Positions 31,286 through 62,482 of a DNA stretch of 64,000 nt are shown piece after piece. The translations under genes and the position numbers were made by a program. The notes beneath the pieces are model-generated. The model worked only from the letters and a program-made list of their open reading frames with translations. It did not search any database and was not told the DNA's origin. Numbering within the stretch: position 1 is the first letter of the stretch; each line of letters begins with the position of its first letter. The stretch spans positions 1-64,000 of the forward strand of contig NZ_JACVCV010000013.1 of the NCBI RefSeq assembly GCF_017811155.1. Reading direction: 5' to 3'. The DNA comes from Lunatimonas salinarum. Lineage in GTDB: Bacteria; Bacteroidota; Bacteroidia; Cytophagales; Cyclobacteriaceae.

Positions 31286-32761
31286 ATGAAAAAGAACATT
31301 TCCCACCTTTTACAGCCCTTGGATAGCTCCAAGCCCAACTCTTTTTCCAACATAGAAAAGGCCGATCCAGCTCCTCTAAAAAATCGTCCTGAAAATGCCG
31401 GGAGACGCAATTTTTTGCAAAAAGCCAGTTTGGGAGGGCTAAGTCTCGGAGGTCTGATGATGCTGCCGGTAGAAGACACCATCGCCCATACTACTTCCAA
31501 AGTAAACAGGCTTTCCAATCCTTCCGAGCTAAAGATCACTGATATGCGTGTGGCACAGTACGGAAATGTACCCATTTTAAAAATTTACACCAATCAGGGA
31601 ATTCACGGGTTGGGCGACGTAAGGGATGGAGCTGACAAACGTTATGCGCTTATGCTGAAATCCCGTATTTTGGGAGAGAATCCCTGTAACATAGAGAAGA
31701 TATTCAAAACCATCGAACAATTTGGAGGCCATGGTCGCCAAGGTGGTGGCGTATCCGGTGTGGAAATGGCCCTATGGGATTTGGCTGGTAAAGCCTACGG
31801 GGTTCCGCTATACATGCTTTTAGGGGGTAAATTTAGGGATAAGGTGCGCATTTACGTAGATACTCCGACCATGCCAGACCCTGATCAGTTTGCCGAAAAA
31901 ATGAAAGAGCGGGTAGACATGGGATTCACCATGCTGAAAATGGACATTGGCATTGGTTTGATCAAGGACATCGAAGACACCCTCACCAATAAGGATCCTT
32001 GGATGCCGCTGCGCGGATGGACTGATAGGGATGTGATGTCTCATGCCCAGACCCGGCATCAGCATACCCATATTCAGATTACCCAGAAAGGGTTGGAAAA
32101 AATGGTGGAATTTGCCGCAAAGGCGCGGGCAAAGGTGGGCTATGAGATACCGTTGGCGATAGATCACTTTGGACACATGGGGTACAATGAAATGATCAAG
32201 CTCGCACACGCCTTTGAACCCTACAATATTGCATGGCTGGAGGATTTAATACCCTGGCAAAATACCGAACAGTGGAAGCGCATCACGGAGTCCATCACCA
32301 CGCCCACGTTGACGGGAGAGGACACTTACCACAAAAAGAACTTTAAGGACCTGATAGAGACTCGCGCGGTGGACATCGTGCATCCCGATCCAGGCAGTGC
32401 AGGAGGATATTTGCAGACCAAAAAAATAGGTGACTATGCTGAGGAGTTTGAGATTGGCATGGCTATTCACCATGCGGCCTCACCCATTACCTTCATGGGT
32501 ACCGTACATGCGGCGGCGGCAACCTATAATTTCATCGGCTTGGAACACCATTCAGTAGATAATCCATGGTGGGAATCGTTGGTAACCGGTATTGACGGGC
32601 CTCTTGTCGAGAATGGCTACGCGAAAGTTCCCGAATCACCGGGCATTGGCCTTGAGTTGAACGAAGACGAGGTGAAGCGTAGATTAAGGCCCGGAGAGGA
32701 GTTCTTTGCGCCCACCGATGAATGGAACGAGCTGAAATCCTGGGATAGAACCTGGAGTTGA
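31286..32761 (+). CDS. Mandelate racemase/enolase-superfamily protein with Tat-like signal (paralogue A)
   Basis: A 491-residue enolase-superfamily protein, probably an acid-sugar dehydratase or epimerase that takes a proton alpha to a carboxylate. The leader carries GRRNFLQKASLGGLSLGG (twin Arg at 40-41), a Tat-like export signal after an unusual 40-residue polar stretch. Core residues: K218-M-D220 on strand 2, metal ligands Asp293, Glu319 and Glu345, Asp368 in HPDPGSAGG, and His395/396. After Asp293 comes H-F-G-H. The C-terminus is SWDRTWS, shared with the paralogue at 43534, and the two proteins are clearly close relatives. A terminator follows; the ECF gene starts 230 bases on. The substrate is unknown. 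Confidence 0.88.
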   Translation: MKKNISHLLQPLDSSKPNSFSNIEKADPAPLKNRPENAGRRNFLQKASLGGLSLGGLMMLPVEDTIAHTTSKVNRLSNPSELKITDMRVAQYGNVPILKIYTNQGIHGLGDVRDGADKRYALMLKSRILGENPCNIEKIFKTIEQFGGHGRQGGGVSGVEMALWDLAGKAYGVPLYMLLGGKFRDKVRIYVDTPTMPDPDQFAEKMKERVDMGFTMLKMDIGIGLIKDIEDTLTNKDPWMPLRGWTDRDVMSHAQTRHQHTHIQITQKGLEKMVEFAAKARAKVGYEIPLAIDHFGHMGYNEMIKLAHAFEPYNIAWLEDLIPWQNTEQWKRITESITTPTLTGEDTYHKKNFKDLIETRAVDIVHPDPGSAGGYLQTKKIGDYAEEFEIGMAIHHAASPITFMGTVHAAAATYNFIGLEHHSVDNPWWESLVTGIDGPLVENGYAKVPESPGIGLELNEDEVKRRLRPGEEFFAPTDEWNELKSWDRTWS

Positions 32762-32770
32762 TGCGGCTAG

Positions 32771-32806
32771 GAGGCTGTTCGATATTTCGGGCAGCCTCTT
32801 CCTTTT
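32771..32806 (+). terminator. Probable terminator after paralogue A
   Basis: GAGGCTG and CAGCCTC form a 7-base-pair stem with a 14-base loop, followed by TTCCTTTT. It starts 9 bases after the stop. The following 187 bases up to the ECF gene hold no feature I can support. Confidence 0.55.
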
Positions 32807-32993
32807 GAAGGCAAAGGTCGTTTGGACTGATCAGATGGTTGGAGGCTTTAGATACACGTCTAGTAAGCCTGTGATTGTTGGTCTAAAAACCTGTTTAACT
32901 TGAATTTTAGACATATTAATGGTATGATTGGGTCAGTTGTAGTTGCGAAATTGGTATAATATGACGTACTTGTAACCAATATCGTCCTTATTC

Positions 32994-33596
32994 ATGTCTC
33001 ATTCGATAAACCCAGATATTCAAACATTAGTTGCTAGGCTACGTAGTGGAGACGAAGCGGCTTTTTGTGCACTGTATCGGAAATTTGCCACCAAAGTGTA
33101 TGCAACCTCCCGAAAAATGGGGTTGCCACACGAAGAGGCGGAAGGCATCGTGCAGGAAGTTTTTATGCGGATTTGGAAAAATCGCCAAGGTTTGAACGAC
33201 GCATTATCCTTCAATGCGTACCTGTTGGCTATCATGAAATCCTTAATTTATAAGCAGGCTAAGCGGGCTGCCAGGTTTCAAGTTTATGCTCAAAATGCCC
33301 GGGCCAAGCAAGAGAACGATCAAAATATGGGAGAAACTTCCCTCCTCTACGAAGACCTACGGCAATTTTCCACCTATGCGCTTTCGACGCTTCCCAAATG
33401 CCAAAAGGAGGTGATCGAGTTGAAGTACCTACAGCACCTTTCTTCCGATGAGATTTCCCAGAAACTATCCATTTCAAAGCGTACGGTAGAGACGCATATT
33501 TACAAGGCTACCAAATCGCTTAGGGAAAGGCTATTGGGATCAAAAACACTTCCCCCCGACCTCCTGTCTATGCTTACCGTTTTTTTATTGGATTAA
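32994..33596 (+). CDS. ECF RNA polymerase sigma factor (FecI-like)
   Basis: A 200-residue sigma-70 family factor with region 2 (about 25-95: AFCALYRKFATKVYATSRKM, then VQEVFMRIWKNR) and region 4 (about 135-185: LPKCQKEVIELKYLQHLSSDEISQKLSIS with helix-turn-helix). It should direct transcription of the SusC/SusD pair downstream. Its partner is the FecR-like gene 116 bases on. With the STN-bearing SusC this makes a complete trans-envelope signalling set of the FecA-FecR-FecI type. Confidence 0.94.
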   Translation: MSHSINPDIQTLVARLRSGDEAAFCALYRKFATKVYATSRKMGLPHEEAEGIVQEVFMRIWKNRQGLNDALSFNAYLLAIMKSLIYKQAKRAARFQVYAQNARAKQENDQNMGETSLLYEDLRQFSTYALSTLPKCQKEVIELKYLQHLSSDEISQKLSISKRTVETHIYKATKSLRERLLGSKTLPPDLLSMLTVFLLD

Positions 33597-33711
33597 GGGT
33601 TTGTTTTTAGATTTCGCATAGTTGATGCTTTCCCATTAAAAATTCTGAAAATTTTCGGGGAGTCGTACGTAAATCCTGCTGAATGGGGATATATCCCTGT
33701 AAAAGGCAGCA

Positions 33712-34728
33712 ATGAGAATGCGATTGGTCGAAAAGTGGCGACGGTTGATGAAAGGGCTTCTTTCAGCCCGAGAAGCATCCGACTTCCTTAAAAGGATGGA
33801 ATCGGAGGAGGGAAAGCGCGCTTTCTACCAAGAGGTCGAAAGCAGCTTTGAGGATCCCAATCTATCGGAGTCCTACTTGGATTGGGACAAGGAGGCCGTT
33901 TTGCAAAAGCTGCTTGAAAAAAAAAGAATGACTAAATCCTTTTGGCCTGGCATGTTGACTGCTCGGACGGGGGCGTACCGGAGATTTGCTGCGAGTTTGC
34001 TTTTGGGATTGCTCGTATATGGGGGCTACTTAGCGTTTTTTGATTCCAATCCAACGTCTAGCTCTGAACCATCGTTCCAATCCCAAGTCATTGTAAAGTA
34101 CAACCCAAAAGGCAAAAGAACAAAGATTCAACTGCCGGACTTATCCTGGGTTTATCTCAACGCCGAGAGTTATCTTGCATACGAGCAGGGTTTTCCAAAT
34201 GGCCGGGAGGTAAGGTTGGTAGGAGAGGCATTTTTTGACGTGACCAAGGACTCCCTACGTCCATTTACCGTGCTCACAGGTAAGATACAGACCACTGCAT
34301 TGGGCACCTCCTTTAACATACACGCCTACAGTGAGAGCCCCGGTGTGCAAGTCACCCTAGCCACTGGTGAGGTGAAAGTGCAGGATTTCGTGTCGTCCTC
34401 AGAACTACACCTATTGCCGGGAGAGGCCTCCAAAACACACGGTGGAGGCACTCCAATGAAGAAATTTCAAGTGGATCCAAATTCCGTCGCTTCCTGGAAG
34501 GATGGTATTCTGCAATTTGAGCAACTGCCACTGTCGGAAGTGGTGCGTTTGTTGGAACGCTGGTATGGAGTATCCATTCACGGGCCTGCTGCTTGGCCAG
34601 ATTTCAAGTGTTCTGGAACCTTCGGTAAAAACGAGTACTTGAGCAATGTGCTTGAGGTTCTCGGGCACAGCATCGGGTTTGATTACACAATCGATGAAAA
34701 GAATATAACCATTCATATTAAACCTTAA
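33712..34728 (+). CDS. FecR-family anti-sigma factor
   Basis: A 338-residue inner-membrane protein. The cytoplasmic N-terminus (about 1-85) would bind the ECF factor. One transmembrane helix (about 90-110: RFAASLLLGLLVYGGYLAFF) leads to a periplasmic FecR domain with YNPKGKRTKIQLPDLSWVYLN, VRLVGEAFFDVTKD and LGTSFNIHAY. A C-terminal secretin/STN-like fold (DUF4974-like, about 260-335) has FEQLPLSEVVRLLERWYGV. It passes the substrate signal from the outer-membrane SusC to the sigma factor encoded just upstream. The 116-base spacer before it includes the palindrome GGGATATATCCC. Confidence 0.93.
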   Translation: MRMRLVEKWRRLMKGLLSAREASDFLKRMESEEGKRAFYQEVESSFEDPNLSESYLDWDKEAVLQKLLEKKRMTKSFWPGMLTARTGAYRRFAASLLLGLLVYGGYLAFFDSNPTSSSEPSFQSQVIVKYNPKGKRTKIQLPDLSWVYLNAESYLAYEQGFPNGREVRLVGEAFFDVTKDSLRPFTVLTGKIQTTALGTSFNIHAYSESPGVQVTLATGEVKVQDFVSSSELHLLPGEASKTHGGGTPMKKFQVDPNSVASWKDGILQFEQLPLSEVVRLLERWYGVSIHGPAAWPDFKCSGTFGKNEYLSNVLEVLGHSIGFDYTIDEKNITIHIKP

Positions 34729-34844
34729 ACCTATGATCTACCCATTTCATCTCACGTTTTTTAGTCATCCACCCCCATTCTCGTGGGAGCACACCCGATG
34801 ACCAACCTGTAGGCAGTTAACAAACCAATTAATCAAACCCAAAA

Positions 34845-37800
34845 ATGAAACACATTATATACCAAATTTTACAGAAGGTGTGCTGCTATATCTCCGTGTT
34901 TGCCGGAGTGTGGTTGGCAACCTTTTCTGTGGCACAGGCTTTTTCCGACGAGGCGCAGGCAAAGAGCATTGAAGAGGTGATGGTTCGCTTGGATGTAAGG
35001 GAGGGTAACCTTCAAACCATTTTAAAGGCGATAGAAAGTAGGACCGAGTACCGATTTTTTTATACCGATCAAAATCTACGGGATGGCACGACCATCCGAC
35101 TGGCTAAAAACCGGGGTTCGGTGGCCGAAATTTTAACTGATATTGCTTTTCAAAAAAAGCTGCATTTTAAGCAGGTTAATAATACGATCAGCGTGAAGTC
35201 GTTGAAATCGTCCAAGGAGGAAAGCTCGGTTGAAATTTTAGTCGACGAGTACGATATCGATATTCAGGGGACGGTAACAACCCAAGACGGGGATCCGATT
35301 CCGGGAGTAGCCATTTCCGTTGCAGGTACCACAGTGGGCACCATTACCGATATTGACGGAAGATATAGCCTGACCGTTCCCGATAATGCCACCTTGGTAG
35401 TTTCTTACATAGGCTATGCCAGTCAGCGTATTCAAGTAGGTACAAGGACGGTTGTGAATATTGTGCTTATGGAGGATATCGCCGCCTTGGAGGAAGTCGT
35501 GGTGACGGCACTCGGTATAGAAAGGGAGGCGAAGAGCCTGGGTTATGCGACTACCTCTGTATCCTCAGAAGAGATGACCATTAACCGAACGCCCAACTTT
35601 ATGAATGCGCTCCAGGGCAAGGTAGCAGGCGTAAATATCAGTAGTCTGGGATCCGGCCCGGCAGGTACCAGCAAGATACGGATCAGGGGGCAGTCGTCCT
35701 TTGGAGGTCAAAACCAGCCCTTGATTGTGATTAATGGTATTCCTGTGGACAATACCAATTTCGGAGCCAATCCCGGAAATCGTGGTTCAGACGCCTCCAA
35801 CACGGACCGGGGTAGAACCCGCGTATCGGATGGTGGTGATGGTCTCACCAGTATCAATCCCGATGATATTGAAACCATGACCGTTTTACGGGGTGCGGCA
35901 GCTTCGGCTTTGTACGGTGCTCGGGCTAAAGATGGCGTGATCATGATTACCACCAAGCAACGAAATCGTGGACAGGGAATAGGTGTGGAGTTCAACACGA
36001 ACTACACCTCTGACAATCCCATGGATTTTACCGATTGGCAGTATGAATATGGGCAGGGAGAGAATGGCATACGGCCTACGTCGGCAAATCCCGTTTCCGG
36101 TGTATGGAGTTTCGGAGAGAGATTTCAACCTGGCATGACCCAAGTATTGTTTGATGGGGTGGAAGTGCCCTATGTGCCGCAGCCGAGTCATATCAGCACC
36201 TTTTACCGTACAGGGCATACCTTCACCAACACCGTTACGGTATCTTCTGGAGGAGAGTTTGGCGGATTCAGTCTTTCCGTATCTAATTTGGACAATCAAA
36301 GCATCGTGCCTAACTCCGGCTATGACCGAAAGACCTTTAACATTGGATTTACCCAAGAAATTGCCAAAAAGTTAATTGTTTCGGGAAACGTGAACTACTC
36401 GCTAGAAGACATCAAAAATCCGCCTCAGATCGCCGAACAGGATATGAGTACGCCCACCGTGTTGAACACATTGGCCAACTCCATGCCCCTATCGCTGATG
36501 CGGGAAAAGATGGCGGATGCGAATGGGAATGAGTTTGTATTCTCCCGCTTTAGGAATAGGACCAATCCCTACTGGTCTACTTTTGAGAAATTTGACAACG
36601 TGCGAAGGGATCGTGTGTTTGGAAATATCACCGCAAGATACAATATCGCGGAATGGCTCTTTGTGCAAGGTAGGATAGGGCAGGATTTTTATGCAAGAGA
36701 TCAGGACTATAACTTCCCCACAGGGACCGCTTCGCTGCCCAATGCTCCGGTAGGGTTTGTAAATGGAGATTATGTACAGGACAATCGTAGATTCAGGGAG
36801 GTCAATACCGATTTCCTAATCGGCGCAAACAAAAAGTTTGGTGACTTTGGCACCTCGCTCACGCTGGGCGGTAACCAAATGTACCGGCGGATGGATCGCA
36901 ACAACGTGCTGGTGAATGATTTTATCGTGCGGGATTTGTATACGGTGATGAATGGCAGGGTGAAGGATCCCATTTATGAAATCTCCGAGCGGCAGGTGAA
37001 CTCTCTCTATGCGATGGCCGAGTTGTCTTACCGAGATTACCTCTTTTTAAACGGAACGGTTCGGAATGATTGGTTTTCTACCCTTGCGCCGCAAAACCGA
37101 AGCATTCTGTATCCTGCGGTAACGGGAAGCTTTGTTTTTTCGCAACCTTGGGAAAACTTCCCCGAGTGGATTTCTTTCGGAAAGATCCGGGCAGGATATG
37201 CGGAAGTGGGGAGCGATACCGACGTAAGCCCCTATGCGGATAACTTATTTTACCGAGTGGAAAACAATCAGTTTCCCAATCCAGCAGGTCAACTGCAGCC
37301 GGTAGGGGTGATCAATTCATCTACGGTTCCCAACGCCAATTTGCGGCCTATGCGGGTTTCGGAGTGGGAGACCGGTATCGAAATGAAGTTTCTGGATAAC
37401 CGCTTCGGGTTGGACCTTACCTACTACAATAAAGTTACTAGAGATCAGATTTTGGGTGCTCAAGTCTCAGACGCTTCCGGCTATTTGCAACAGCTGATCA
37501 ATGTAGGCGAAAGCAGTAACCGGGGGGTGGAAGCCTTGCTGACAGCCGTGCCGGTACAAACTGCCAATTTTACGTGGGAGACTAGCTTCAATGCATCTTG
37601 GAACATGACGGAAACCTTGAAGTTAGGCTTGACGGAAGGAGATTCCGTTATCACCGTAGGAGCGGCTGTGTATGGGGGTGAGCTGCGGCAGGTAGTAGGC
37701 AAGCCCATGGGGCAGATATATGGATTTGGTTACAGAAGGGATCCCCAGGGAAATATCGTGTATGACGCAAATAACGGTAGGCCACTTCGTACCAACTTGC

Positions 37801-38369
37801 AGATACCATTCGGTTCCGCTATCCCTATTTGGGTGGGTGGTTTTATGAATACGTTCCAGTTCAAGAATCTTTCCCTATCTACGTTGATAGATTTCAAACT
37901 GGGCCACAAGATGCTGTCAGGAACCAACTTCAATGCTTGGCGCCATGGTTTGCACAAAGGAACGTTAGTTGGTCGTGAACAGGGTTTTGTCATCGGCGAA
38001 GGGGTCAAAAATGTAGGCACGGCCGAAAATCCGTCTTTTGTTCCCAACGATGTGCAAACTGAGGTACAGACCTTTTATGAGACGGTGCGGTCTGCGAACA
38101 TGGTCGAGGAATTCATCTACAATGCTGGATTCTGGAACCTTCGTCAGGTATCGATCGGATACGACCTTACTCCCCATTTGCCGGAGAACTTCTTCATCAA
38201 AAGCCTGCGGGCAAACTTGGTGGGCAACAACGTCTTGGTCATCAAAAAATGGGTACCCAACATCCATCCCGAGGAGTTTGGCTTTACGTCAGATAACTTG
38301 ATGGGGCTGGAGGCACACGGGCTACCTGTGACCCGCAGCATTGGATTTAACCTAAACTTTAAATTTTAA
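34845..38369 (+). CDS. SusC/RagA-type TonB-dependent transporter with STN signalling domain
   Basis: A 1174-residue outer-membrane TonB-dependent receptor. After the signal peptide there is an STN domain (about 45-125: REGNLQTILKAIESRTEYRFFYT), then a carboxypeptidase-regulatory-like domain (about 140-220: GTVTTQDGDPIPGVAISVAGT), the plug with NALQGKVAGVNI and SMTVLRGAAASALYGARAKDG-type blocks, and the beta-barrel ending in LNFKF. It imports a ligand together with the adjacent SusD; the STN domain passes ligand sensing to the upstream FecR. The gap to fecR is 116 bases, the gap to susD only 5 bases. The ligand is unknown; the neighbours suggest an acidic sugar. Confidence 0.95.
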   Translation: MKHIIYQILQKVCCYISVFAGVWLATFSVAQAFSDEAQAKSIEEVMVRLDVREGNLQTILKAIESRTEYRFFYTDQNLRDGTTIRLAKNRGSVAEILTDIAFQKKLHFKQVNNTISVKSLKSSKEESSVEILVDEYDIDIQGTVTTQDGDPIPGVAISVAGTTVGTITDIDGRYSLTVPDNATLVVSYIGYASQRIQVGTRTVVNIVLMEDIAALEEVVVTALGIEREAKSLGYATTSVSSEEMTINRTPNFMNALQGKVAGVNISSLGSGPAGTSKIRIRGQSSFGGQNQPLIVINGIPVDNTNFGANPGNRGSDASNTDRGRTRVSDGGDGLTSINPDDIETMTVLRGAAASALYGARAKDGVIMITTKQRNRGQGIGVEFNTNYTSDNPMDFTDWQYEYGQGENGIRPTSANPVSGVWSFGERFQPGMTQVLFDGVEVPYVPQPSHISTFYRTGHTFTNTVTVSSGGEFGGFSLSVSNLDNQSIVPNSGYDRKTFNIGFTQEIAKKLIVSGNVNYSLEDIKNPPQIAEQDMSTPTVLNTLANSMPLSLMREKMADANGNEFVFSRFRNRTNPYWSTFEKFDNVRRDRVFGNITARYNIAEWLFVQGRIGQDFYARDQDYNFPTGTASLPNAPVGFVNGDYVQDNRRFREVNTDFLIGANKKFGDFGTSLTLGGNQMYRRMDRNNVLVNDFIVRDLYTVMNGRVKDPIYEISERQVNSLYAMAELSYRDYLFLNGTVRNDWFSTLAPQNRSILYPAVTGSFVFSQPWENFPEWISFGKIRAGYAEVGSDTDVSPYADNLFYRVENNQFPNPAGQLQPVGVINSSTVPNANLRPMRVSEWETGIEMKFLDNRFGLDLTYYNKVTRDQILGAQVSDASGYLQQLINVGESSNRGVEALLTAVPVQTANFTWETSFNASWNMTETLKLGLTEGDSVITVGAAVYGGELRQVVGKPMGQIYGFGYRRDPQGNIVYDANNGRPLRTNLQIPFGSAIPIWVGGFMNTFQFKNLSLSTLIDFKLGHKMLSGTNFNAWRHGLHKGTLVGREQGFVIGEGVKNVGTAENPSFVPNDVQTEVQTFYETVRSANMVEEFIYNAGFWNLRQVSIGYDLTPHLPENFFIKSLRANLVGNNVLVIKKWVPNIHPEEFGFTSDNLMGLEAHGLPVTRSIGFNLNFKF

Positions 38370-38419
38370 AGAAAATGAAAAAGTTAGGTATAAGTGTCAA
38401 CCTCAAAAACCTAGGCGTA

Positions 38420-39973
38420 ATGAAAAATCTTCTGAAAGCCCTATGCATAAGTCTTATTATCCTGTCTCCGCTCAGTAGCTGCGACAGCGGATTTGATGAA
38501 ATGAACATCAACCCGGTACAGCCCACTTCATTGGATCCGATTTACCTGATGAACCGGGCTGCGCTGTTTTCGACTATCTCCAGCACCTCACTGAATTACG
38601 AGTCGGCGATTGTGCAGCAGATTGTCTCTCCAAATGGAGGAGTATTGGCAGGTGGTAACTTCAACCAATTAAATCGGGCCTTTTCCATCGGCACCTGGAA
38701 TAAATATTACCGGGATGTATTGAAGCATACCATAGATGTAAAGCGATTTACCCGTGACAATCCGGGAAGAAACAACCTGTTTCAGATGGCGAGAATTCTT
38801 CAGGCCTTATCGGCTATGATCCTCACGGACACCTTTGGAGATGTGCCTTATTTTGAAGCAGGTCTGGGATTTCTCGAAGGCAAAATTGATCCGGCGTACG
38901 ATCGGCAGGAAGAAATCTACCTGGACATCTTGAATGAACTACAGGAGGCAACCGCTGCGCTGAATCCTTCCGGTAGAATTGAAACTGGAGATATATTCTA
39001 TGGGGGTGATGTTGCCAAATGGCGTAAACTTGGGTATTCACTCATGTTGCGGGCGGCGATGCGTCACACGAAGGTAAACCCCACTCGTGCAAGAGAGTGG
39101 GTGGAACGTGCTGTAGCCGGTGGCGTGATGGCCTCGAATGCCGATAACATGATGATTCAGCATGATTTTAACTATTCCAACGAGTTGGGAAATACGCTGA
39201 ATGCGACAGAAGCAAACAACTATTACCTCGCCGAACCTTTTGAACAATTTTTGAGCGAAACGAACGATCCTAGACTTGGTTCCATAGCCGTACGTTTCAT
39301 TGGTGCGGGTAGTGGACCGGATCAGAACAATGCACTGGCAGGAAACCCGGCACCCGGCGTCAACCTCTCCAGAAATCCGGCTGACCAAATGGGTTTCCCC
39401 ATGGGATACGACAACCAAACCATTGGAGCGGTGGTGCAGGCAAGAGGCCTCAGAAGTTTCTACGAGTTTTCCCAAGTGGATCGAACCCGAATGACAGCGC
39501 GCGATGCACCTATCTTTCATGTAACGTATTCTCAGACTTCGCTTTTGTTGGCGGAAGCAGCACACCGGGGTTGGATTGCAGGTAACGCGGCTGATTACTA
39601 TGCGCAAGGGATCCGGGCAAATATGGAGCAGATGGCTGCCTATGGAGAAAATACAGCCATAGCTGAATCGGCCATCGATGCCTATATCGAAACCCATCCC
39701 CTTGACGAGGCAAATGCCATGGAGCAGATTGGCGAGCAATATTGGGTGGCCTCTTTTCTTAATGCATACGAAGGTTTTGCCAATTTCCGCAGGACAGGTT
39801 ATCCCGCTTTGGCACCTAACCCCTATCCCGGCAAGGATATCTCCGGTGACTTTATCCGACGTTTGTCCTATCCCGATGCAGAGTTTTCGGTGAATAATGC
39901 AAATATCACCGCAGCAGTAGCCCGACAGGGTCCGGACAACTTGGATACGCGTGTATGGTGGGACACCCCCTGA
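38420..39973 (+). CDS. SusD/RagB-family nutrient-binding lipoprotein (SusD-like group 2)
   Basis: A surface lipoprotein of 517 residues with lipobox LSSC (Cys21 from this start). The family text (FDEMNINPVQPTSLDP, NKYYRDVLKHTID, ILTDTFGDVPYFEAG) fits the SusD-like group that pairs with SusC receptors. Tetratricopeptide-like helices form the scaffold. The start at 38420 gives a standard signal peptide; the ATG at 38375 adds 15 residues and cannot be excluded, being only 5 bases after the SusC stop. It captures ligand over the SusC pore. A hairpin terminator follows. Confidence 0.93.
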   Translation: MKNLLKALCISLIILSPLSSCDSGFDEMNINPVQPTSLDPIYLMNRAALFSTISSTSLNYESAIVQQIVSPNGGVLAGGNFNQLNRAFSIGTWNKYYRDVLKHTIDVKRFTRDNPGRNNLFQMARILQALSAMILTDTFGDVPYFEAGLGFLEGKIDPAYDRQEEIYLDILNELQEATAALNPSGRIETGDIFYGGDVAKWRKLGYSLMLRAAMRHTKVNPTRAREWVERAVAGGVMASNADNMMIQHDFNYSNELGNTLNATEANNYYLAEPFEQFLSETNDPRLGSIAVRFIGAGSGPDQNNALAGNPAPGVNLSRNPADQMGFPMGYDNQTIGAVVQARGLRSFYEFSQVDRTRMTARDAPIFHVTYSQTSLLLAEAAHRGWIAGNAADYYAQGIRANMEQMAAYGENTAIAESAIDAYIETHPLDEANAMEQIGEQYWVASFLNAYEGFANFRRTGYPALAPNPYPGKDISGDFIRRLSYPDAEFSVNNANITAAVARQGPDNLDTRVWWDTP

Positions 39974-39995
39974 TGCGCCTCTAGTGAATGTTTAC

Positions 39996-40035
39996 AGGCA
40001 GGTTTTCCAACTCGATCTGGGAAACCTGCCTTTTT
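39996..40035 (+). terminator. Hairpin terminator between susD and the first rraA-like gene
   Basis: AGGCAGGTTTTCC pairs with GGGAAACCTGCCT (13 pairs, one wobble) around a 10-base loop, followed by TTTTCC. It ends 27 bases before the rraA-like start, so the enzyme gene must depend on read-through or on its own promoter inside this region. Confidence 0.85.
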
Positions 40036-40062
40036 CCAATTTCAATAAAATCAACACCGTTT

Positions 40063-41010
40063 ATGACTTCAAATAGATTTACGCTTTGTTTTTTTTGCCT
40101 CTTTTTTGTTCTAGGGCCTGTCTTTTACCTGACGGGTCAGCAGATCAGTAAGGACGAAATGCTGTTTCTTACCCAAGCTTGGGAGGGTGAGCGTTTTGAA
40201 GACGGCAGGCCGAAAGTTTCGGACAACCTTCTGGAACGTATGAAACTGGTAACCCATGAGGAGGCCTGGGCCGTGATGCGAAATGCCGGTTACAAGTACC
40301 AATATGCAGAAGGTTGGCAGATGATCCACCCCGATTCCATCCTGGTAGGTCGTGCGGTTACCGCTACCTTTATTCCCGGCAGGCCCGATATACACGATGC
40401 GATAGACAAGCGGGGCAGGGCCGAGGGCAAACGGGGTCAAAATACCTGGCCCGTTGATTTATTGGTGCCTGGTGATGTATATGTGGCCGATCAGTTTGGG
40501 CTTCATGTAGATGGACCCACCATAGGCGACAATGTAGGCAATGCCATCTATGCCAAATCGGGAAATGGGATCGTATACGATGGGGCGCTGAGGGATATAT
40601 CCGGGCTAAGGGAGATCGCTGGTTTTACTTCTTTTTACAGCAGCTACCATCCTTCCCACCACAATCAGCAGGGAAATCTGAACACCATGTTGATTGGAAT
40701 TAACCAGCCAACGAGAATCAGGCAGGTAACGGTAATGGCCGGAGATGTCGTTTTAGGCAGGGACGGAGGTGTCTCTTTTATTCCGCCGCATTTGGTAGAA
40801 CGGGTGGTGGTGACCTCCGAGATTGTCCGGCTCCGGGATATGTTTGGCCATCAACGGATTCGGGAGGGCGTTTATACCGCAGGTCAAATTGATACTCGCT
40901 GGGCAGATGAAATCGAGCGGGACTTTTCCCGGTGGCTAAACGACCGTATCGACGAATTACCGGTGCCCCGTGAGCAGATTCAGGAGATTCTGAAAAACCG
41001 TACCTGGTAA
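40063..41010 (+). CDS. Exported RraA-fold protein 1 (aldolase/decarboxylase-like)
   Basis: A 315-residue protein of the RraA/HMG-CHA aldolase family, whose enzymes cleave or decarboxylate 2-oxo-4-hydroxy acids with a divalent metal. The signature D-x20-R-D is intact, running from the Asp of IGDNVGN to RD of GALRDISGL. Unusually there is a Sec signal peptide (MTSNRFTLCFFCLFFVLGPV, cleaved near TGQQ), so it is expected in the periplasm. About 60 residues precede the fold, and a helical C-terminal extension follows, ending ILKNRTW. The start at 40063 is chosen because it opens the signal peptide. Downstream, an enolase-superfamily gene begins 48 bases after the stop. Confidence 0.88.
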   Translation: MTSNRFTLCFFCLFFVLGPVFYLTGQQISKDEMLFLTQAWEGERFEDGRPKVSDNLLERMKLVTHEEAWAVMRNAGYKYQYAEGWQMIHPDSILVGRAVTATFIPGRPDIHDAIDKRGRAEGKRGQNTWPVDLLVPGDVYVADQFGLHVDGPTIGDNVGNAIYAKSGNGIVYDGALRDISGLREIAGFTSFYSSYHPSHHNQQGNLNTMLIGINQPTRIRQVTVMAGDVVLGRDGGVSFIPPHLVERVVVTSEIVRLRDMFGHQRIREGVYTAGQIDTRWADEIERDFSRWLNDRIDELPVPREQIQEILKNRTW

Positions 41011-41058
41011 ATGCAATCCAAAAGAAAACCAATTAGTCAAATCCAAAATAGTGTACTG

Positions 41059-42336
41059 ATGTCGAAAAAAGTGAATAGGAGATCTTTTCTGGGCAAATCA
41101 GCCCTTGCCAGCCTGACCGGTGCGGCATTTTTATCCAACTACGGGAATGGCTTGGCAGCAGCGGTAGACCGCATGCCAACCTATTCCAACCCATCTGAGT
41201 TGAAGATTACCGACGTGAAATGTGGATATGTTCGGGGAGCGGTTTATGTGAAAATATACACTAACCAAGACGTTTGGGGTTGTGGTGAAGCGGTGGATGC
41301 GATTCACGGCACCTACCATCTTGTGAAGCGTTTGGGCAACATGATCAAAGGACAAAACCCGCTTAATCCCAACCGTCTAGCAGAGCAACTCCGAAAGGGT
41401 GCCTTTTTTGCAGGGGGACAGTCGGGTGTATTCGTAGCCGTGTTGACCGCTATTGAAACCGCCTTGTGGGATATTACCGGCAAAGTGTTTAATGTGCCGG
41501 TCTATCAATTATTAGGTGGAAAATTTAGGGATAAAATACGGGTCTATTGTGACACGGCGCTCTATACCTCCACGAATCCCAAGCCCGCTGACTATGCAGC
41601 GGCTGCACGGGGGGCCGTGGAAAGGGGGTACAATGCAGTGAAATTTGACGTCGACGATGGCCGGGATCCAAACAAGTACGACCGGTTTAACTGGACGGCA
41701 AGTCCCGCGGAGATAGACCGCATGTACCAAGCCATCGCAGCCGTGCGGGAGGAAGTGGGCCCGAATATTGACATTTGTGTGGACATGCACGGAAGATACG
41801 ATGCGGTGACCGGTCTGAAAATGGCCAAGATGTACGAAGACCTAAACCTAATGTGGCTTGAGGAGCCCGTTCCGGCGGATAATCCGGATGTTTATAAGCA
41901 TATTACCCATCAGACCACTACCCCCATATGTACCGGCGAAAATGTGTATTTGGCCTATGGCTTTACCAGGCTTTTGAGTGACGGGGCTGTAGATATTATC
42001 ATGCCCGATATCCAAAAGGCCGGCGGCTTGGGAGAGGCACAGCGCATTGCCAACCTGGCCAATCTATATTATGTGCCGTTTTCTCCCCATATGGTGGCCT
42101 CTTTTCTGGGCGCCATGGCGAGTTGCCATGTATGTGCTTCGGTGCCTAATTTCCAGATTATGGAGTGGCAGATATACATGGACACAGATCAAATGTGGAA
42201 GGACATCGTGACCTACGATGGGCCTAGGACGGAGAATAGCTTTATTACCCTTTCGGAAAAACCGGGAATAGGCGTGGAGATCAACGAAGAAGGGATGCGA
42301 AAATACGCGGTAAAAGACATACCGTTTTTCGAATAG
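41059..42336 (+). CDS. Mandelate racemase/enolase-superfamily dehydratase-like protein with Tat signal (type B)
   Basis: A 425-residue enolase-superfamily protein with a clear Tat signal, NRRSFLGKSALASLTGAAFL (Arg7-Arg8), cleaved near GLAAA. Active-site residues: K195-F-D197, metal ligands Asp242, Glu268 and Glu294, Asp317 in MPDIQKAGG and His344 in SPHM. The Asp242 block reads D-M-H-G-R, as in galactonate and mannonate dehydratases, so a sugar-acid dehydratase is the best guess. It differs from the two D-H-F-G-H paralogues at 31286 and 43534. An ATG at 41011, directly after the rraA stop, would add 16 residues before the Tat motif. Confidence 0.88.
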   Translation: MSKKVNRRSFLGKSALASLTGAAFLSNYGNGLAAAVDRMPTYSNPSELKITDVKCGYVRGAVYVKIYTNQDVWGCGEAVDAIHGTYHLVKRLGNMIKGQNPLNPNRLAEQLRKGAFFAGGQSGVFVAVLTAIETALWDITGKVFNVPVYQLLGGKFRDKIRVYCDTALYTSTNPKPADYAAAARGAVERGYNAVKFDVDDGRDPNKYDRFNWTASPAEIDRMYQAIAAVREEVGPNIDICVDMHGRYDAVTGLKMAKMYEDLNLMWLEEPVPADNPDVYKHITHQTTTPICTGENVYLAYGFTRLLSDGAVDIIMPDIQKAGGLGEAQRIANLANLYYVPFSPHMVASFLGAMASCHVCASVPNFQIMEWQIYMDTDQMWKDIVTYDGPRTENSFITLSEKPGIGVEINEEGMRKYAVKDIPFFE

Positions 42337-42448
42337 CCTAAACTAAGAAACTGATGGTCAATTGGATGGTATGAATAGCGGATGTGATCCGAGCCATTCG
42401 GCCCAAAAACCGTTCTTGTAATTCTGCGTCTATGTTTCGTAAAATCTT

Positions 42449-42456
42449 TATCTTTA
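42449..42456 (+). promoter_or_regulatory. Candidate -7 box of the second rraA-like gene
   Basis: TATCTTTA, one mismatch from TAnnTTTG, lies 41 bases before the start at 42497 in the 160-base gap after the enolase-family gene. No good -33 box is seen. Confidence 0.3.
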
Positions 42457-42496
42457 AGCGAAAATGATCAAAGATATAATCCAAACAAACGAAAAA

Positions 42497-43429
42497 ATGA
42501 AGAGATTCTCATTGGTGTGTTTTTTACTGTTATTTACGTGGGCAGGAACCCTGTTTTCCCAGCAAATTTCACCTACGCCCGAACAAATCATCGCATTGAC
42601 TTCAAAGTGGACCGGCGAGCGATTTCCGGATGGCCGGCCAAAGGTTTCCGATGAATTATTGGAGCGACTCAGCAAAGTGTCTATGGAGGAGGCCTGGGGA
42701 ATTCTCAGAAATCGGGGATACAACAATCAATTCGAAAATGATTGGGTGATCCTGAGGGAGGATCAAGTAATGACCGGTAGAGCCGTGACCGCTCAGTATA
42801 TGCCGCTGAGGCCGGATGTGAACGACCTAGTGAAGGAAATCGGCAAAAAAGAAGGCCGAGCCCAATCCGGCGGCACCAATTCATGGCCGATTGATGCCTT
42901 GGTAGAGGGAGATATCTACGTGGCCGACGGCTTTGGCAAAATTGTGGATGGAACCCTGATAGGAGATAATTTGGGTAACTCCATTTATACCAAATCCAAA
43001 AGAGGGGTCATCTTTAACGGTTCCGTACGCGACATGGCCGGATTGCTTGCCATAGATGGATTCAATGGTTGGGTAAAGGGACATGACCCTTCGTACATTC
43101 AAGAAATGATGCTTTCTACAATCAACTACCCGGTAAAAATCGGCAGGGCCCACGTGCTTCCCGGAGATGCAGTTTTGGCCAACAAGTGGGGCGTGATTTT
43201 CATCCCATCCCACCTAGTAGCAGATTTGGTGATCAATGCGGAATTTATAGTCCTTCGAGATCAGTTCGGCATTCAGCGATTGCGGGAGCAAAAGTACACG
43301 CCTGGTCAGATTGACAGTGCCTGGAGTGATGAGATCAAAAGTGATTTCCTGAATTGGCTGAAAAGCAAGCAGGATCTGCCTATGAGCAGGGAAGAACTGG
43401 AAGCTTTCATGAAGGACCGCAACTGGTAA
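42497..43429 (+). CDS. Exported RraA-fold protein 2 (aldolase/decarboxylase-like)
   Basis: A 310-residue paralogue of the protein at 40063, with the same plan: signal peptide (MKRFSLVCFLLLFTWAGTLF, cleaved before SQQ), a conserved lead-in (WTGERFPDGRPKVSDELLERL), and the RraA core with D-x20-R-D, from the Asp of IGDNLGN to RD of GSVRDMAGL. It also shares the C-terminal extension, ending FMKDRNW. Canonical RraA-fold enzymes lack both signal and extension. The start at 42497 is chosen over 42464 because it begins the hydrophobic signal. A strong terminator follows the gene. Confidence 0.88.
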   Translation: MKRFSLVCFLLLFTWAGTLFSQQISPTPEQIIALTSKWTGERFPDGRPKVSDELLERLSKVSMEEAWGILRNRGYNNQFENDWVILREDQVMTGRAVTAQYMPLRPDVNDLVKEIGKKEGRAQSGGTNSWPIDALVEGDIYVADGFGKIVDGTLIGDNLGNSIYTKSKRGVIFNGSVRDMAGLLAIDGFNGWVKGHDPSYIQEMMLSTINYPVKIGRAHVLPGDAVLANKWGVIFIPSHLVADLVINAEFIVLRDQFGIQRLREQKYTPGQIDSAWSDEIKSDFLNWLKSKQDLPMSREELEAFMKDRNW

Positions 43430-43462
43430 AATCTTGCCAACAAGTACTTTATAGTCTATCAT

Positions 43463-43511
43463 AGGGTCACGGACATGGAACTAGTAGCCATTTGTTCCGT
43501 GGCCCTTTTTT
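43463..43511 (+). terminator. Terminator after the second rraA-like gene
   Basis: AGGGTCACGGA pairs with TCCGTGGCCCT (11 pairs, one wobble), with an inner ATGG/CCAT helix, then TTTTTT. It ends 22 bases before the next start. Confidence 0.85.
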
Positions 43512-43533
43512 AACCCAATTAACAAATAAACCT

Positions 43534-45024
43534 ATGAAACAGAATTTAAAGGATCTTATTGCCAGGTGTGCCAAGGAGGATCAGGTGGCGGCTCAAGCAA
43601 GAGAAGCGGAAATGACCCATCCCGAAACGACAAATGAACGGAGAAGTTTTCTCAAGAAAACGATGCTGGGAGGTTTGAGTTTGGGAGCGTTGATGGGGGC
43701 CTCGATAGAGGATACCATGGCACACACGACGTCCAAGGTAAACCGGTTTTCCAATCCATCCGACCTGAAGATTACCGACATGCGGGTAGCGGTGCTGCGC
43801 AATGTGGGTAGGACGCCCATCATTCGCATTGATACCAATCAGGGAATCTATGGGCTGGGAGAGGTAAGGGATGGTGCAGACGAGCGCTATGCGCTGATGC
43901 TCAAGAGTAGAATTCTTGGGCTCAATCCCTGCAACGTAGAAATGCTTTGGAAAATCATCAATCCCTTTGGCGGCCACGGACGATTGGGAGGCGGGGTTTG
44001 CGCCGTAGAGATGGCCCTATGGGATTTATGCGGAAAGGCTTACGGAGTACCTGCCTGGCAGCTTTTAGGCGGCCGGTATCGGGACAAAGTGCGACTCTAT
44101 GCGGACACGCCTGGGATGGATGATCCGGCTGAATTTGCCAAGGTCATGAAGCAGCGAACCATTGAACAAGGGTTTACCTGGTTGAAAATGGACTTGGGGA
44201 TACACGTGGTGGCTGATGATCCCGATGCCTTGGTAAACTCAAAATTCTGGAATGGTGCCAAAGGCCAATACGACACCCGTGACTATATGAGCTATGGAAG
44301 TACAGAGCACCCATTCACACAGGTTCAAATCACCGATAAAGGATTGGAAGGCTTAGCCAAATACGTCGAATCTATTCGGGAAGCAGTAGGATACGAGATT
44401 CCGCTCTGTGCAGACCACTTCGGGCACTTTGATGTGAACAATTCCATTCGTTTTGCCAAGGCGATGGAAAAGTACCGCCTTGCGTGGGTAGAAGACATGG
44501 TTCCTTGGTTCTATACGGACCAATGGAAGACGCTGTCCGACGCCATAGAAACACCCACCTGCACGGGCGAAGATATCTATATGCTGAAAAATGGATTTAA
44601 GCCTTTGATTGATGCCAAAGCAGTAGATATCGTACACCCCGATTTGGGGACTTCCGGCGGATTGTTGGAGACCAAGAAGATCGGGGATTATGCAGAGGAA
44701 CACGGCATCGCCATGGCCATGCACATGGCCGGGTCGCCGGTTTGCTTCATGGCAAACGTACATTGCGCTGCGGCTACTCAAAATTTCTTATCGCTAGAGC
44801 ACCACTCTGTGGATACTCCCTGGTGGGAAGACCTGGTAACCATGACGGGATCTCAGCCCATGGTTACCAAGGGATTTGCCAATGTGCCGCTCGATGCACC
44901 TGGACTGGGTATCGAATTGAATGACGAAGTGATGAAGGAGCATCTTTTTCCTGGAGCTCCCGGTTATTTTGAGCCAACACCGGATTGGGATCAAAGGCGC
45001 TCTTGGGATAGAACCTGGAGTTGA
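43534..45024 (+). CDS. Mandelate racemase/enolase-superfamily protein with Tat signal (paralogue C)
   Basis: A 496-residue close relative of the protein at 31286. The Tat motif is ERRSFLKKTMLGGLSLGALM (Arg36-Arg37) after a polar 35-residue leader. Core residues: K218-M-D220, Asp294 followed by H-F-G-H, Glu320, Glu346, Asp370 in HPDLGTSGG and His397. It shares KITDMRVA, VRDGAD-RYALMLKSRILG and the C-terminal SWDRTWS with paralogue A. A likely exported acid-sugar dehydratase or epimerase; substrate unknown. The start at 43534 is favoured since the upstream frame runs through the terminator at 43463-43511. It is bracketed by terminators, so it needs its own promoter or read-through. Confidence 0.88.
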   Translation: MKQNLKDLIARCAKEDQVAAQAREAEMTHPETTNERRSFLKKTMLGGLSLGALMGASIEDTMAHTTSKVNRFSNPSDLKITDMRVAVLRNVGRTPIIRIDTNQGIYGLGEVRDGADERYALMLKSRILGLNPCNVEMLWKIINPFGGHGRLGGGVCAVEMALWDLCGKAYGVPAWQLLGGRYRDKVRLYADTPGMDDPAEFAKVMKQRTIEQGFTWLKMDLGIHVVADDPDALVNSKFWNGAKGQYDTRDYMSYGSTEHPFTQVQITDKGLEGLAKYVESIREAVGYEIPLCADHFGHFDVNNSIRFAKAMEKYRLAWVEDMVPWFYTDQWKTLSDAIETPTCTGEDIYMLKNGFKPLIDAKAVDIVHPDLGTSGGLLETKKIGDYAEEHGIAMAMHMAGSPVCFMANVHCAAATQNFLSLEHHSVDTPWWEDLVTMTGSQPMVTKGFANVPLDAPGLGIELNDEVMKEHLFPGAPGYFEPTPDWDQRRSWDRTWS

Positions 45025-46281: not shown

Positions 46282-49200
46282 ATGAAAGTAACGTTACAGC
46301 ACCTTGCAATGAAAGGTGTCAGGACGATCTGTGCGGGCACAGTGGTCCTGGGTTCGTTTGGGTTGGCGGGGTTCCCGGCGTTTAGTCACAACGCGGCGGA
46401 TTTGCCCACACCAAACGGCACATTGACATCGGTTCACTTCAATGGAGACCTACTGCCGGAAGATTTCCGTAAGGATGTCTCCGGAACGGTTTTGGATCCA
46501 AACGGAGACCCCATGCCCGGAGTAAGTGTATTGGTACAGGGTACCACTACCGGTACCGTCACTGATCTGGATGGTAAATTTTCAATCAATGTGCCAGATG
46601 GAGGAACCCTTGTATTTTCTTTTATTGGATACGAAAGCCAATTGGTAGTCGTAGGTGACCGTACGGTCATTAATATTAACATGAAAGAGGACGCCACTGC
46701 CTTGGACGAAGTGGTGGTCATTGGCTACGGAACGGTTAAGAAATCGGATTTGACCGGCTCTGTAGGTTCCGTTCGGGGAGATAAGCTCATCGACCGATCT
46801 CAGCCCAACGCGGTGAAGTCACTACAGGGGCGTATAGCTGGTGTGGAAGTACTCAACAACCAAAACTCCCCTGGTGCTTCGGCCCGAATCCGAATCAGAG
46901 GAGTCAACTCGATCAATTCTGGCGTTAACCCGCTTTTTGTGATCGATGGGATCATCGGTGCCGACCTGAACATGATCAACCCTTCGGACATCGAATCCGT
47001 CGAGGTACTGAAAGATGCCTCCTCCGCGGCCATTTATGGTGCGCGGGGCGCAAACGGTGTGATTCTGGTCACCACCAAACGAGGGGAAAAGAATCAAAAT
47101 CAAGTATTGTACGATAACTTCGTTTCCGTATCCAACCGGGCAACGACCGTTCCAAGGCTGAATGCGCAGCAGTTTATGGATGTGTATAACCGGGCTTACG
47201 ACAACGCTCAAAAGTACGATCCGTCGGGTTTTGCACAAGGACGCTATGTGAGGGCCAATCCCTTGGATTACCCCGACCTGTTTGATTCCAATGGCCGTCC
47301 ATTGTATGACACGGATTGGGAAGACGAGGTGTACGGTACCGCTTGGGCGCAAAACCATAACCTGGCCTTCAGGGGAGGAAACAACTTGACGTCCTACAAT
47401 GTATCGCTGGGGTATACCAACGAAGACGGAATCATGATGAATTCCGGTTTTGAGCGATTTACGGGTAAGATAGCGCTAGATTCCGAAATCAAGCCATGGT
47501 TGACTGTGGGTGGTAGCATCTTGGGAACCAAGAGTACCCGTAGGGTGGTCGATGACGCCAACGGTGCATTGAATGTCGCCAGGATGGTGGCTGAAGCTCT
47601 TCCCTTTCTGCCAGTGCGGTATCCGGATGGGCGATGGGGAGCCAACGCCGATTGGCCGGGTACAGAGGGTGCGGAGAACCCGGTACGGATTGCCCAAAAC
47701 CGCTACACGGATGTGAACCTCAACCAAATGTATGCGGACTTCTACATGAATTTCAAGATCACCAAAGACCTGGAATTTAAGTCTACGTTCAGCACCATTT
47801 TTGACAGCCAGAAAAACAATTTCTATTCTTCCCGAACCCTTCGGCTTTTGTCGGCTGACCAACGGGGTATTGCCACGGTATCCACCAACCAGCGACTTTA
47901 CTGGCAGAATGAAAATTTTGTAAACTGGAATAAGTCCATCGGAACCCGACACCGAATCAACGGGATGTTTGGCTTCAGCTGGTTGAAGGATAGCTTTGAA
48001 AACCTGAGCGTACGCAGTGAAGGGTTCATAGACGATTTCTTTCAGTGGAGAAATATTCGCGCCGGTAACATCATCCCAATATCCGGCATCAATGGAAACG
48101 TAGGGGCCTACGCGTTGAACTCCTATTTTACGCGATGGAATTATAGCTTGGATAACAAGTATTTATTTACCGTGACCGGCCGATACGACGGTTCCTCCCG
48201 TTTCGGTGGGAACAATAAGTTTGCCTTTTTTCCTTCCGTAGGTATCGCCTGGAGGGCATCTGAGGAAGGCTTTATGCAGGGTGTAGATGCGATCAACAAT
48301 TTGAAGTTCCGCGCAAGTGCAGGTTCTACCGGTAACCAGGAAATCGGTAACTTCAACTCCCTGCAGTTTTTGGGAACGTTTAACGTACTCAAGGCTGCAG
48401 GAAATGAAATTGGGGTTTCCCAGACCTCATTCGGCAACCCCGATCTGAAATGGGAATCCACCGACCAAGTAGACTTCGGGTTTGAGCTGGGATTGTTTAA
48501 CAGCCGGGTAATGGTAGAGGGTGACCTGTACTACAAGCGGACCAAAAACCTGCTCCTCAACGCACCGCTTCCTTGGTCAACAGGCTTTGGATCCGTACTT
48601 CAAAACATCGGATCGGTTGAAAACAAAGGTATAGAACTGACCGTGAATACCGTCAACGTGGAGCGGGGTGAGTTTACCTGGAACACTGATTTGAACTGGT
48701 CTACCAACCGAAACGAAATCCTGGAATTAGGTGCTAACGATGCGGATATTTTTCCAGGCCCTTGGTTTTTGGGGCAGACCAATATTTTGCGGGTAGGTGA
48801 GCCCATAGGTTCCATCTGGGGCCGTGTGCGTACCGGTACTTGGAATCTGGATGAGGCAGACCAGGCCGCTCAATATGGCCTACTTCCAGGAGACATACGC
48901 TGGGAAGATTTGGATAACAACGGTGTAATCAATGCGAATGATTCCAAAATCATAGGTAGGATGTATCCCAAATGGGTTGGAAACATAACCAACACCTTTA
49001 CTTACCGCGACTTCGACTTATCCTTTGAATTCCGGGTAGTATATGGGCAGGACGTGATCAATGCGACGAAACACTCCGTAGAGGATCGTCAAACCTTGGC
49101 AAACAGCTATGCTACCGTTTTGGATGCCTGGACACCGGAAAATCAAAACTCCATGATTGCCGAAGTGAGGGCCTGGGGTACCCCCTATCTCACCAACATG

Positions 49201-49470: not shown

Positions 49471-49489
49471 CCCTTAACTACGCATTATT

Positions 49490-50971: not shown

Positions 50972-51007
50972 GTAATTAATCACCATTTTTCGGGTATTAT
51001 CCTCAAT

Positions 51008-51045
51008 AAGCCGTCCATATTCCTTATGGGCGGCTTTTATATTTT
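51008..51045 (+). terminator. Terminator after the second SusC/SusD pair
   Basis: AAGCCGTCCATA and TATGGGCGGCTT form a 12-base-pair stem with one wobble and a 5-base loop, followed by TTATATTTTTT. Confidence 0.9.
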
Positions 51046-51358
51046 TTGACTGGTTAATTAAAAAAACCTCAAACTTTTTTTATTTGAGCTTTTTGCCCTA
51101 TATTTCACCGATAAATAGAATTAGCAATATTTCCCAACTTAAAAAAATATTATTTCCTGTAAATGGAGACAATATTTGGACCGCTATTGGTTTAGTTTAT
51201 AAATAGGATTATATTTTTAGTTGGGAAAATGCGCTTGGTTTTTCATTCCAATCCCAAAATACCTATGAAATAGCTCAACAAATCACCCCAACGAAAGAGG
51301 TTCACATACAACCTCTACTATCTCAATTCCTCAAATAACTTAACAACAAACAAACTTT
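51046..51358 (+). promoter_or_regulatory. AT-rich leader of the third SusC/SusD pair
   Basis: About 310 gene-free bases between a terminator and a SusC start, again much richer in A and T than the genes around it. TATATTTC at 51099-51106 is one base from TAnnTTTG and may be a -7 box, implying a leader of about 245 bases. The last 60 bases (many CAA and CTA) look unstructured. Confidence 0.4.
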
Positions 51359-54670: not shown

Positions 54671-54690
54671 TCCGTTAATTGAAAAACATT

Positions 54691-56481: not shown

Positions 56482-56506
56482 GTTAACTAGGGCTTAACAT
56501 GCGTAA

Positions 56507-56570
56507 AAACCTGCTGATTTGGTGATCGAGTAGCTTGGCTGTTCCTTCACTGAAATCGGCAGGTTTTTTT
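56507..56570 (+). terminator. Terminator after the third SusC/SusD pair
   Basis: AAACCTGCTGATTT pairs with AAATCGGCAGGTTT (14 pairs, one wobble) around a 30-base loop that can fold further, followed by seven T. Confidence 0.85.
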
Positions 56571-56658
56571 ATGAACGGTGGGTAACTTTCCCCGAAATTG
56601 CAGATATTTCCCTTGACATACATGTCAATGCCATCACCTATCCCTTTATAACCTTTCT

Positions 56659-57738: not shown

Positions 57739-57792
57739 TTCATACCCATTTGGAACCGATAAACATTTTCATTTCAACGATTAGCCCAAACC

Positions 57793-62478: not shown

Positions 62479-62482
62479 TTAA

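Follow-up and report, generated by a model that had tools for sequence, protein, structure and literature searches.

A candidate exported module of enolase-superfamily and RraA-fold proteins for sugar-acid breakdown in Lunatimonas salinarum

Introduction

What do enolase-superfamily and RraA-fold proteins do when both carry export signals and are encoded around a SusC/SusD uptake pair? The question is raised by a locus at positions 31286-45024 of a 64,000-nucleotide stretch of the Lunatimonas salinarum genome (contig NZ_JACVCV010000013.1), referred to here as the window. The window lies on contig C44 of a genome of 5.46 Mb in 166 contigs. The open reading frames (ORFs) were found in exactly the order and strand given in the original prediction, which was made from the DNA letters: nine genes, all on the + strand. 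Export is predicted through the twin-arginine translocation (Tat) or the general secretory (Sec) pathway.

ENO1, 31286-32761, + strand: predicted Tat-exported enolase-superfamily protein of the ENO3 type, with DHFGH in place of the DxH base
ECF (extracytoplasmic function) sigma factor, 32994-33596, + strand: assigned by domain matches
FecR anti-sigma factor, 33712-34728, + strand: assigned by domain matches
SusC/RagA TonB-linked outer-membrane receptor, 34845-38369, + strand: assigned by domain matches
SusD-like outer-membrane lipoprotein, 38375-39973, + strand: SusD-like_2
RraA1, 40063-41010, + strand: RraA fold with a Sec-type leader; Gly180, Asp181, Arg202 and Asp203 match an aldolase site
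ENO2, 41011-42336, + strand: predicted Tat-exported sugar-acid dehydratase of the D-galactonate dehydratase type
RraA2, 42497-43429, + strand: RraA fold with a Sec-type leader
ENO3, 43534-45024, + strand: predicted Tat-exported enolase-superfamily protein that retains the metal ligands and the His-Asp dyad, with Phe/Tyr in place of the DxH base

We consider it somewhat more probable than otherwise that these genes specify an exported module for the breakdown of sugar acids, which would work in the periplasm in the manner of a non-phosphorylative Entner-Doudoroff/Dahms-like route. SusC and SusD would bring the ligand into the periplasm under the control of ECF and FecR, and a Tat-exported enolase-superfamily dehydratase would remove water from a sugar acid to give a 2-keto-3-deoxy acid. 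A Sec-exported RraA protein would then act on this product. Its most likely role is that of a metal-dependent pyruvate aldolase that releases a 2-oxo acid and an aldehyde, and a dehydratase role is less likely; the 2-oxo acid would enter the cell via a PanS-like SBF carrier encoded elsewhere in this genome. The observations that bear on this proposal are the gene order, the leaders, the conservation, the fidelity of the partners and the active-site residues.

Gene organization and conservation of the locus

ENO1, ENO2 and ENO3 match the N- and C-terminal MR_MLE domains of Pfam, and RraA1 and RraA2 match RraA-like. The remaining genes match ECF, FecR, the TonB plug (SusC, which also matches OMP_RagA_SusC) and SusD-like_2. 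The stop codon of RraA1 ends at 41010 and the ATG of ENO2 follows immediately at 41011. RraA1 and RraA2 share 48% identity, ENO1 and ENO3 share 58%, and ENO2 shares 34% with ENO1. The SusC-SusD pair adjoins catabolic genes, as in nutrient-uptake loci of this kind, and no glycoside hydrolase was found between 31286 and 45024.

A scan with both RraA proteins, using two peptide patterns, gave at least 510 matching stretches, and the best 80 named loci, all from Bacteroidota by their record titles, were analysed. These loci over-represent close relatives because they are the best-scoring matches picked by the two patterns, and two even draws of genomes, 247 from the phylum and 395 from the class, were used as a control for this bias. 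RraA1 adjoins an enolase-family gene in 77 of the 80 loci. Two of the three misses (L022 and L082) stop at a contig edge right after RraA1, and in the third (L073) ENO2 is the next ORF of at least 100 residues. Similarly, RraA2 adjoins an enolase-family gene in 49 of 50 loci; RraA2 and ENO3 are jointly present in 49 loci and jointly absent in 30, and RraA2 stands alone in a single locus at a contig end. The adjacent pairs are on the same strand in 153 of 157 cases with a median gap of 40 bases. Among the matches listed, the closest named locus is that of a Lunatimonas metagenome-assembled genome (L004), which has the identical nine-gene order at 68-95% identity.

Of the 247 evenly drawn Bacteroidota genomes, seven have ENO2 (E<=1e-80), and these same seven have RraA1 (at least 64% identity). 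The two genes are adjacent in six of them. In G219, the remaining genome, a contig break divides ENO2, and the start of the gene is next to RraA1. Four of the seven genomes come from one family, so relatedness contributes to this co-occurrence. RraA and enolase genes thus form a conserved paired module, and the co-occurrence in relatives, named in the original prediction as a check, was borne out. RraA1-ENO2 and RraA2-ENO3 may be distinct pairs, each with its own substrate. In one locus (L114, 11554-12216) an intact RraA1-ENO2 pair has remnants of RraA2 and ENO3 next to it, which looks like loss of one pair and retention of the other, and in another (L113, 10618-11552) RraA1 is in two overlapping pieces, possibly through a frameshift or an assembly error.

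Export signals

The twin-arginine motifs read by eye are RRNFLQK in ENO1, RRSFLGK in ENO2 and RRSFLKK in ENO3, each followed by a hydrophobic stretch. RraA1 and RraA2 have a hydrophobic N-terminal stretch that ends ahead of Q-Q. Leaders were judged by simple sequence rules for Tat and Sec devised for this analysis. All 140 ENO-family proteins (86 ENO2, 51 ENO3 and 3 ENO1, the window included) pass the Tat rule, as do 29 of the 911 other ORFs of at least 150 residues from the same loci and the window. Among RraA proteins of at least 290 residues, 78 of 80 RraA1 and 51 of 51 RraA2 pass the Sec rule; five of 25 cytoplasmic E. coli proteins also pass, and the Sec rule is therefore taken as supportive. 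The Tat leaders of the three enolases and the Sec signals of the two RraA proteins, as originally predicted, are in agreement with these motifs and rules, and the genome encodes one TatC.

The accompanying statement that the enolase family is normally cytoplasmic does not fit this organism. When the true enolase is set aside, eight of the 12 PF13378 proteins of the genome carry a twin-arginine leader by eye, one of which (RRAAIQ, in L085) falls outside the Tat rule, so exported enolase-family proteins appear to be common here. Elsewhere in the genome (L123, C79:20000-36000), three consecutive enolase-superfamily genes at 6229-10199, each with a twin-arginine motif by eye, occur without an RraA gene.

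Active sites of the enolase-superfamily proteins

The ENO proteins were aligned with E. coli DgoD, RspA and GudD as controls, and the conservation counts cover RraA proteins of at least 280 residues and ENO proteins of at least 380 or 400 residues. ENO2 residues D258, H260, E284, E310, D333, H360 and E385 correspond, with a constant offset of 75, to DgoD D183, H185, E209, E235, D258, H285 and E310, and each of these seven residues is present in 84 of 84 homologues. We take DgoD D183, H185, E209, E235 and H285 to be the metal ligands and the His bases. The KxK motif of E. coli GudD (K205 and K207) is not present in ENO2 in this alignment, and a DxH site without KxK favours aldonate over aldarate. 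Judged by its residues, ENO2 is certainly of the aldonate-dehydratase type. Its DgoD-like site predicts a monoacid substrate, and the product would therefore be a 2-keto-3-deoxy-aldonate. The best NCBIfam model for ENO2 is galactonate dehydratase (PRK14017) at 252.7 bits; since this is below the cut-off of 311, ENO2 is not filed as a galactonate dehydratase but only as working like one.

ENO1 and ENO3 keep the three acidic metal ligands and the His-Asp dyad and would be a divergent subgroup of the proposed dehydratases. The ENO3 model has a mean predicted local distance difference test (pLDDT) score of 77.7, and its nearest structures are 2qq6 and other uncharacterised members. No characterised near relative of ENO1 or ENO3 was found among the matches.

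Active sites of the RraA-fold proteins

RraA residues are numbered from position 39988, and the start of RraA1 itself is at ~40063. Gly180, Arg202 and Asp203 are present in 132 of 132 RraA proteins and Asp181 in 119 of 132. Together these four residues align with the site (Gly-101, Asp-102, Arg-123 and Asp-124) of the 4-hydroxy-4-methyl-2-oxoglutarate/4-carboxy-4-hydroxy-2-oxoadipate (HMG/CHA) aldolase 3noj, where the enolate is stabilised by Arg-123 and Asp-124 is a metal ligand (PMC5065237). Near the end of the aldolase alignment, Glu278 and Asp284 are also invariant. The RraA2 model has a mean pLDDT of 91.8; its nearest solved folds are RraAS2 and 3k4i, with 3noj at rank 8.

The family name and the structural likeness to E. 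coli RraA and RraAS2 would suggest a non-enzymatic RNase regulator whose neighbourhood is incidental. A role as RNase E regulator was rejected, and we consider this reading highly improbable given the Sec-type leaders, the strict pairing with dehydratases and the metal-binding Asp203, which is found in all 132 proteins whereas E. coli RraA has Gln at this position.

A further possibility, which we regard as unlikely, retains the exported pair and makes RraA a Weimberg-like dehydratase that forms alpha-ketoglutaric semialdehyde, or else has it dehydrate and decarboxylate an aldarate product in the manner of FlDet from Flavobacterium sp. UMI-01, which belongs to the RraA family. Genes of the Weimberg type do lie near the pair (FAH in 8, aldehyde dehydrogenase in 8 and IlvD in 5 of the 80 loci), but in a minority of loci, and the DxH site of ENO2 without the KxK of GudD speaks for an aldonate. 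FlDet makes alpha-ketoglutaric semialdehyde as a dehydratase/decarboxylase specific for 2-keto-3-deoxy-D-glucarate; it is reported to accept only this aldarate product and to be inactive on 2-keto-3-deoxy-gluconate (PMC8563752). The known fates of a 2-keto-3-deoxy-aldonate are aldol cleavage and dehydration (PMC9795676). Owing to the conserved aldolase-type residues, a role as aldolase is modestly preferred for RraA.

Exchange of the enolase partner

The exported-type RraA genes were also hand-counted in the annotated stretches of both even draws, which gave 36 distinct places; in two tandem cases (L126 and L127) both RraA copies were counted with a single ENO3 on the opposite strand. At 26 places the RraA gene sits with ENO-type genes, and at five (L097, L100, L101, L125 and L129) it sits with a DgaE-type pyridoxal phosphate (PLP) lyase and an amidohydrolase. 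The Tat rule is passed by all 25 ENO proteins checked at these places and by the DgaE-type protein in four of the five loci, the one failing being that of L097 (RRKAL). The DgaE loci also contain a RidA-like gene (L097, L100, L125 and L129, not L101) and an SBF carrier (L097, L100, L101 and L129).

The product of DgaE is a 2-keto-3-deoxy acid phosphate (PMC9529869). The enolase-type dehydratases and DgaE are wholly unlike in fold and cofactor and alike in product class, that is, 2-keto-3-deoxy acids. RraA stays while its partner changes, and this is the main reason from which we infer that RraA is placed downstream of a 2-keto-3-deoxy acid. RraA is thus probably the next step after formation of this acid. 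In the genome of the window, a third exported-type RraA gene (L109, C166, 9042-9971) occurs without an enolase-type or DgaE-type partner and adjoins SusC/SusD and a protein that is sulfatase-like by eye.

Neighbouring genes and carriers

Neighbours in the 80 loci were named by Pfam, except aldehyde dehydrogenase (NCBIfam) and glycoside hydrolase family 43 (GH43), KDPG (2-keto-3-deoxy-6-phosphogluconate) aldolase and AraA (by eye). SBF was found in 54 loci, SusC in 51, SusD in 46, DUF4440 in 28, FecR in 25 and ECF in 24, followed by the pyrroloquinoline quinone (PQQ) dehydrogenase in 8, SMP-30/cupin in 8, GntP in 5, GH43 in 5, KDPG aldolase in 3 and AraA in 3. Apart from SBF, SusC and SusD, each family occurs in a minority of the loci. 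The best NCBIfam model for the aldehyde dehydrogenase is the alpha-ketoglutaric semialdehyde dehydrogenase, below its cut-off, and that for IlvD is the L-arabinonate dehydratase, just below its cut-off; for IlvD a broader subfamily model scores above the cut-off. The neighbours of the 80 loci suggest that aldoses are oxidised in the periplasm, where the PQQ dehydrogenase and the SMP-30 lactonase would provide upstream steps, and that pentose or hexose acids are the substrates. UxuA-type genes (D-mannonate dehydratase family) occur in 4 of the 80 named loci, and in L099 (8599-10865) two Tat proteins that match UxuA lie beside an RraA-ENO-SBF set.

The SBF carrier of the relatives' loci has PanS as its nearest NCBIfam model (238 bits, below the cut-off of 400). 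Two genes upstream of the locus in the window are possible accessories:

SBF/BASS-type carrier, 26298-27164, - strand: only distantly PanS-like (96.5 bits), on the opposite strand
7-bladed lactonase, 25040-26194, - strand: N-terminal hydrophobic leader

The first of these was rejected as the carrier of the locus: its PanS score of 96.5 bits compares with 238 bits for the relatives' carrier, and it does not belong to the operon. On contig C84 (L122, C84:22000-40000), a RidA-like gene is followed by two PanS-like SBF carriers at 7568-10267, which adjoin a SusC/SusD pair and two Tat proteins.

Downstream of the locus, the window (46282-64000) contains two more SusC/SusD pairs, then an alginate-lyase-family protein, a heparinase II/III-like protein and two polysaccharide lyase family 8 (PL8) lyases, the second of which runs past the window end; this is a neighbouring uronic-acid polysaccharide locus. 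A protein that matches the glucuronyl esterase family (GCE_fung) is encoded at 7280-8539.

Assessment of the proposed pathway

Several findings weigh against the proposed module. The DxH base is absent in ENO1 and ENO3, which have DH[FY]GH instead, with Phe in ENO1 and Phe/Tyr in 51 of 51 ENO3 proteins. The second metal ligand of the aldolase, Glu-199, lies outside the alignment, which stops at residue 198, and aldolase chemistry is not the sole option for the fold because FlDet is a dehydratase/decarboxylase. The leader assignments depend on sequence rules of our own devising. At five of the 36 places RraA is without either partner, and two of these five are on contigs of less than 5 kb. SusC and SusD are both within the analysed stretch in 45 of the 80 loci and not in the other 35, so the predicted link to TonB uptake is common, not general. 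Finally, SBF and PQQ genes are not inside the window locus: the PanS-like carriers of this genome are on C84 and its two PQQ dehydrogenases on C133 and C89, unlinked to the locus.

The unusual site of ENO1 and ENO3, which have no characterised near relative among the matches, could also mean that the exported proteins act on other compounds, such as anhydro-sugar acids, lactones, or ureido or aromatic acids; the enolase protein would then be a racemase or cycloisomerase and RraA a hydrolase-like partner. For the closest solved folds, RraAS2 and 3k4i, the structure listings give no substrate, which would be compatible with such a role. We consider it improbable, as the ENO2 site equals that of DgoD, the partner can be exchanged for a DgaE-type lyase, and the GntP, KDPG aldolase, AraA and GH43 neighbours point to sugars and sugar acids.

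The two-step dehydration and cleavage route in the original prediction is partly supported, by the partner fidelity, the ENO2 site, the Arg-Asp of RraA and the exchange for DgaE in 5 of 36 places; its extension to ENO1 and ENO3 is not supported in the form stated, since the galactonate-type His base is absent. Beyond the exported sugar-acid module itself, we tentatively suggest, as a possibility short of an even chance, that Bacteroidota have a complete periplasmic non-phosphorylative Entner-Doudoroff-like route. Sugars would be oxidised and the acids dehydrated outside the inner membrane by Tat enolases or, for amino-sugar acids, by Tat DgaE-type lyases; both would supply a single exported aldolase of the RraA fold, and import via PanS-like carriers would be limited to small 2-oxo acids and aldehydes.

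If the proposed module is correct, a large group of polymer degraders would carry out C-C cleavage of sugar acids, a central-carbon step, outside the cytoplasm. Hundreds of genes that are at present named only RraA family or mandelate racemase family protein would gain a function, the export of their products would be explained, and 2-oxo acids would be expected to be taken up. The exchange between enolase and PLP partners offers a direct handle for testing the function of exported RraA.

Comparison with known systems

No described system of this kind was known to the author of the original prediction. In a search of open-licence full-text literature, no description of an RraA-enolase pairing or of an exported RraA was found, which is weak evidence of absence. 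A proteomic study of Maribacter on arabinogalactan was considered as prior art and set aside; in its available part the sugar-acid enzymes are described as cytoplasmic and RraA, enolase and racemase are not mentioned (PMC11036162).

Several known systems share parts of the proposed chemistry. The E. coli dgo operon (DgoD dehydratase, DgoK kinase, DgoA aldolase) shares the DgoD catalytic positions with ENO2 and has a dehydratase beside an aldolase, but it is cytoplasmic and includes a kinase, whereas export is predicted here and the core has no kinase. The D-glucosaminate (dga) pathway is resembled by the DgaE-type gene and amidohydrolase near RraA in 5 of 36 places; exported versions are predicted here, and in the dga pathway a KDPG-type aldolase occupies the spot that RraA takes in these loci. 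The HMG/CHA aldolase 3noj, whose Gly, Asp, Arg and Asp site residues align with RraA, is an aromatic-degradation enzyme of Pseudomonas with ~19% identity by structure.

The non-phosphorylative Entner-Doudoroff, Dahms and Weimberg routes share the conversion of a sugar acid to a 2-keto-3-deoxy acid followed by aldol cleavage or a second dehydration, and enolase-superfamily dehydratases are used in such routes in archaea; the differences here are the export signals on both enzymes and the RraA fold in place of DHDPS/NAL or FAH (PMC9795676). FlDet shares the use of an RraA fold on a 2-keto-3-deoxy sugar acid within Bacteroidota, but it has 237 residues and a mature N-terminus at Met, so that no leader is removed, and the available part of the report does not mention an enolase-type gene partner (PMC8563752). 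The chemistry of the proposed module is thus of a known kind, and its compartment, the RraA partner and the partner swap are new.

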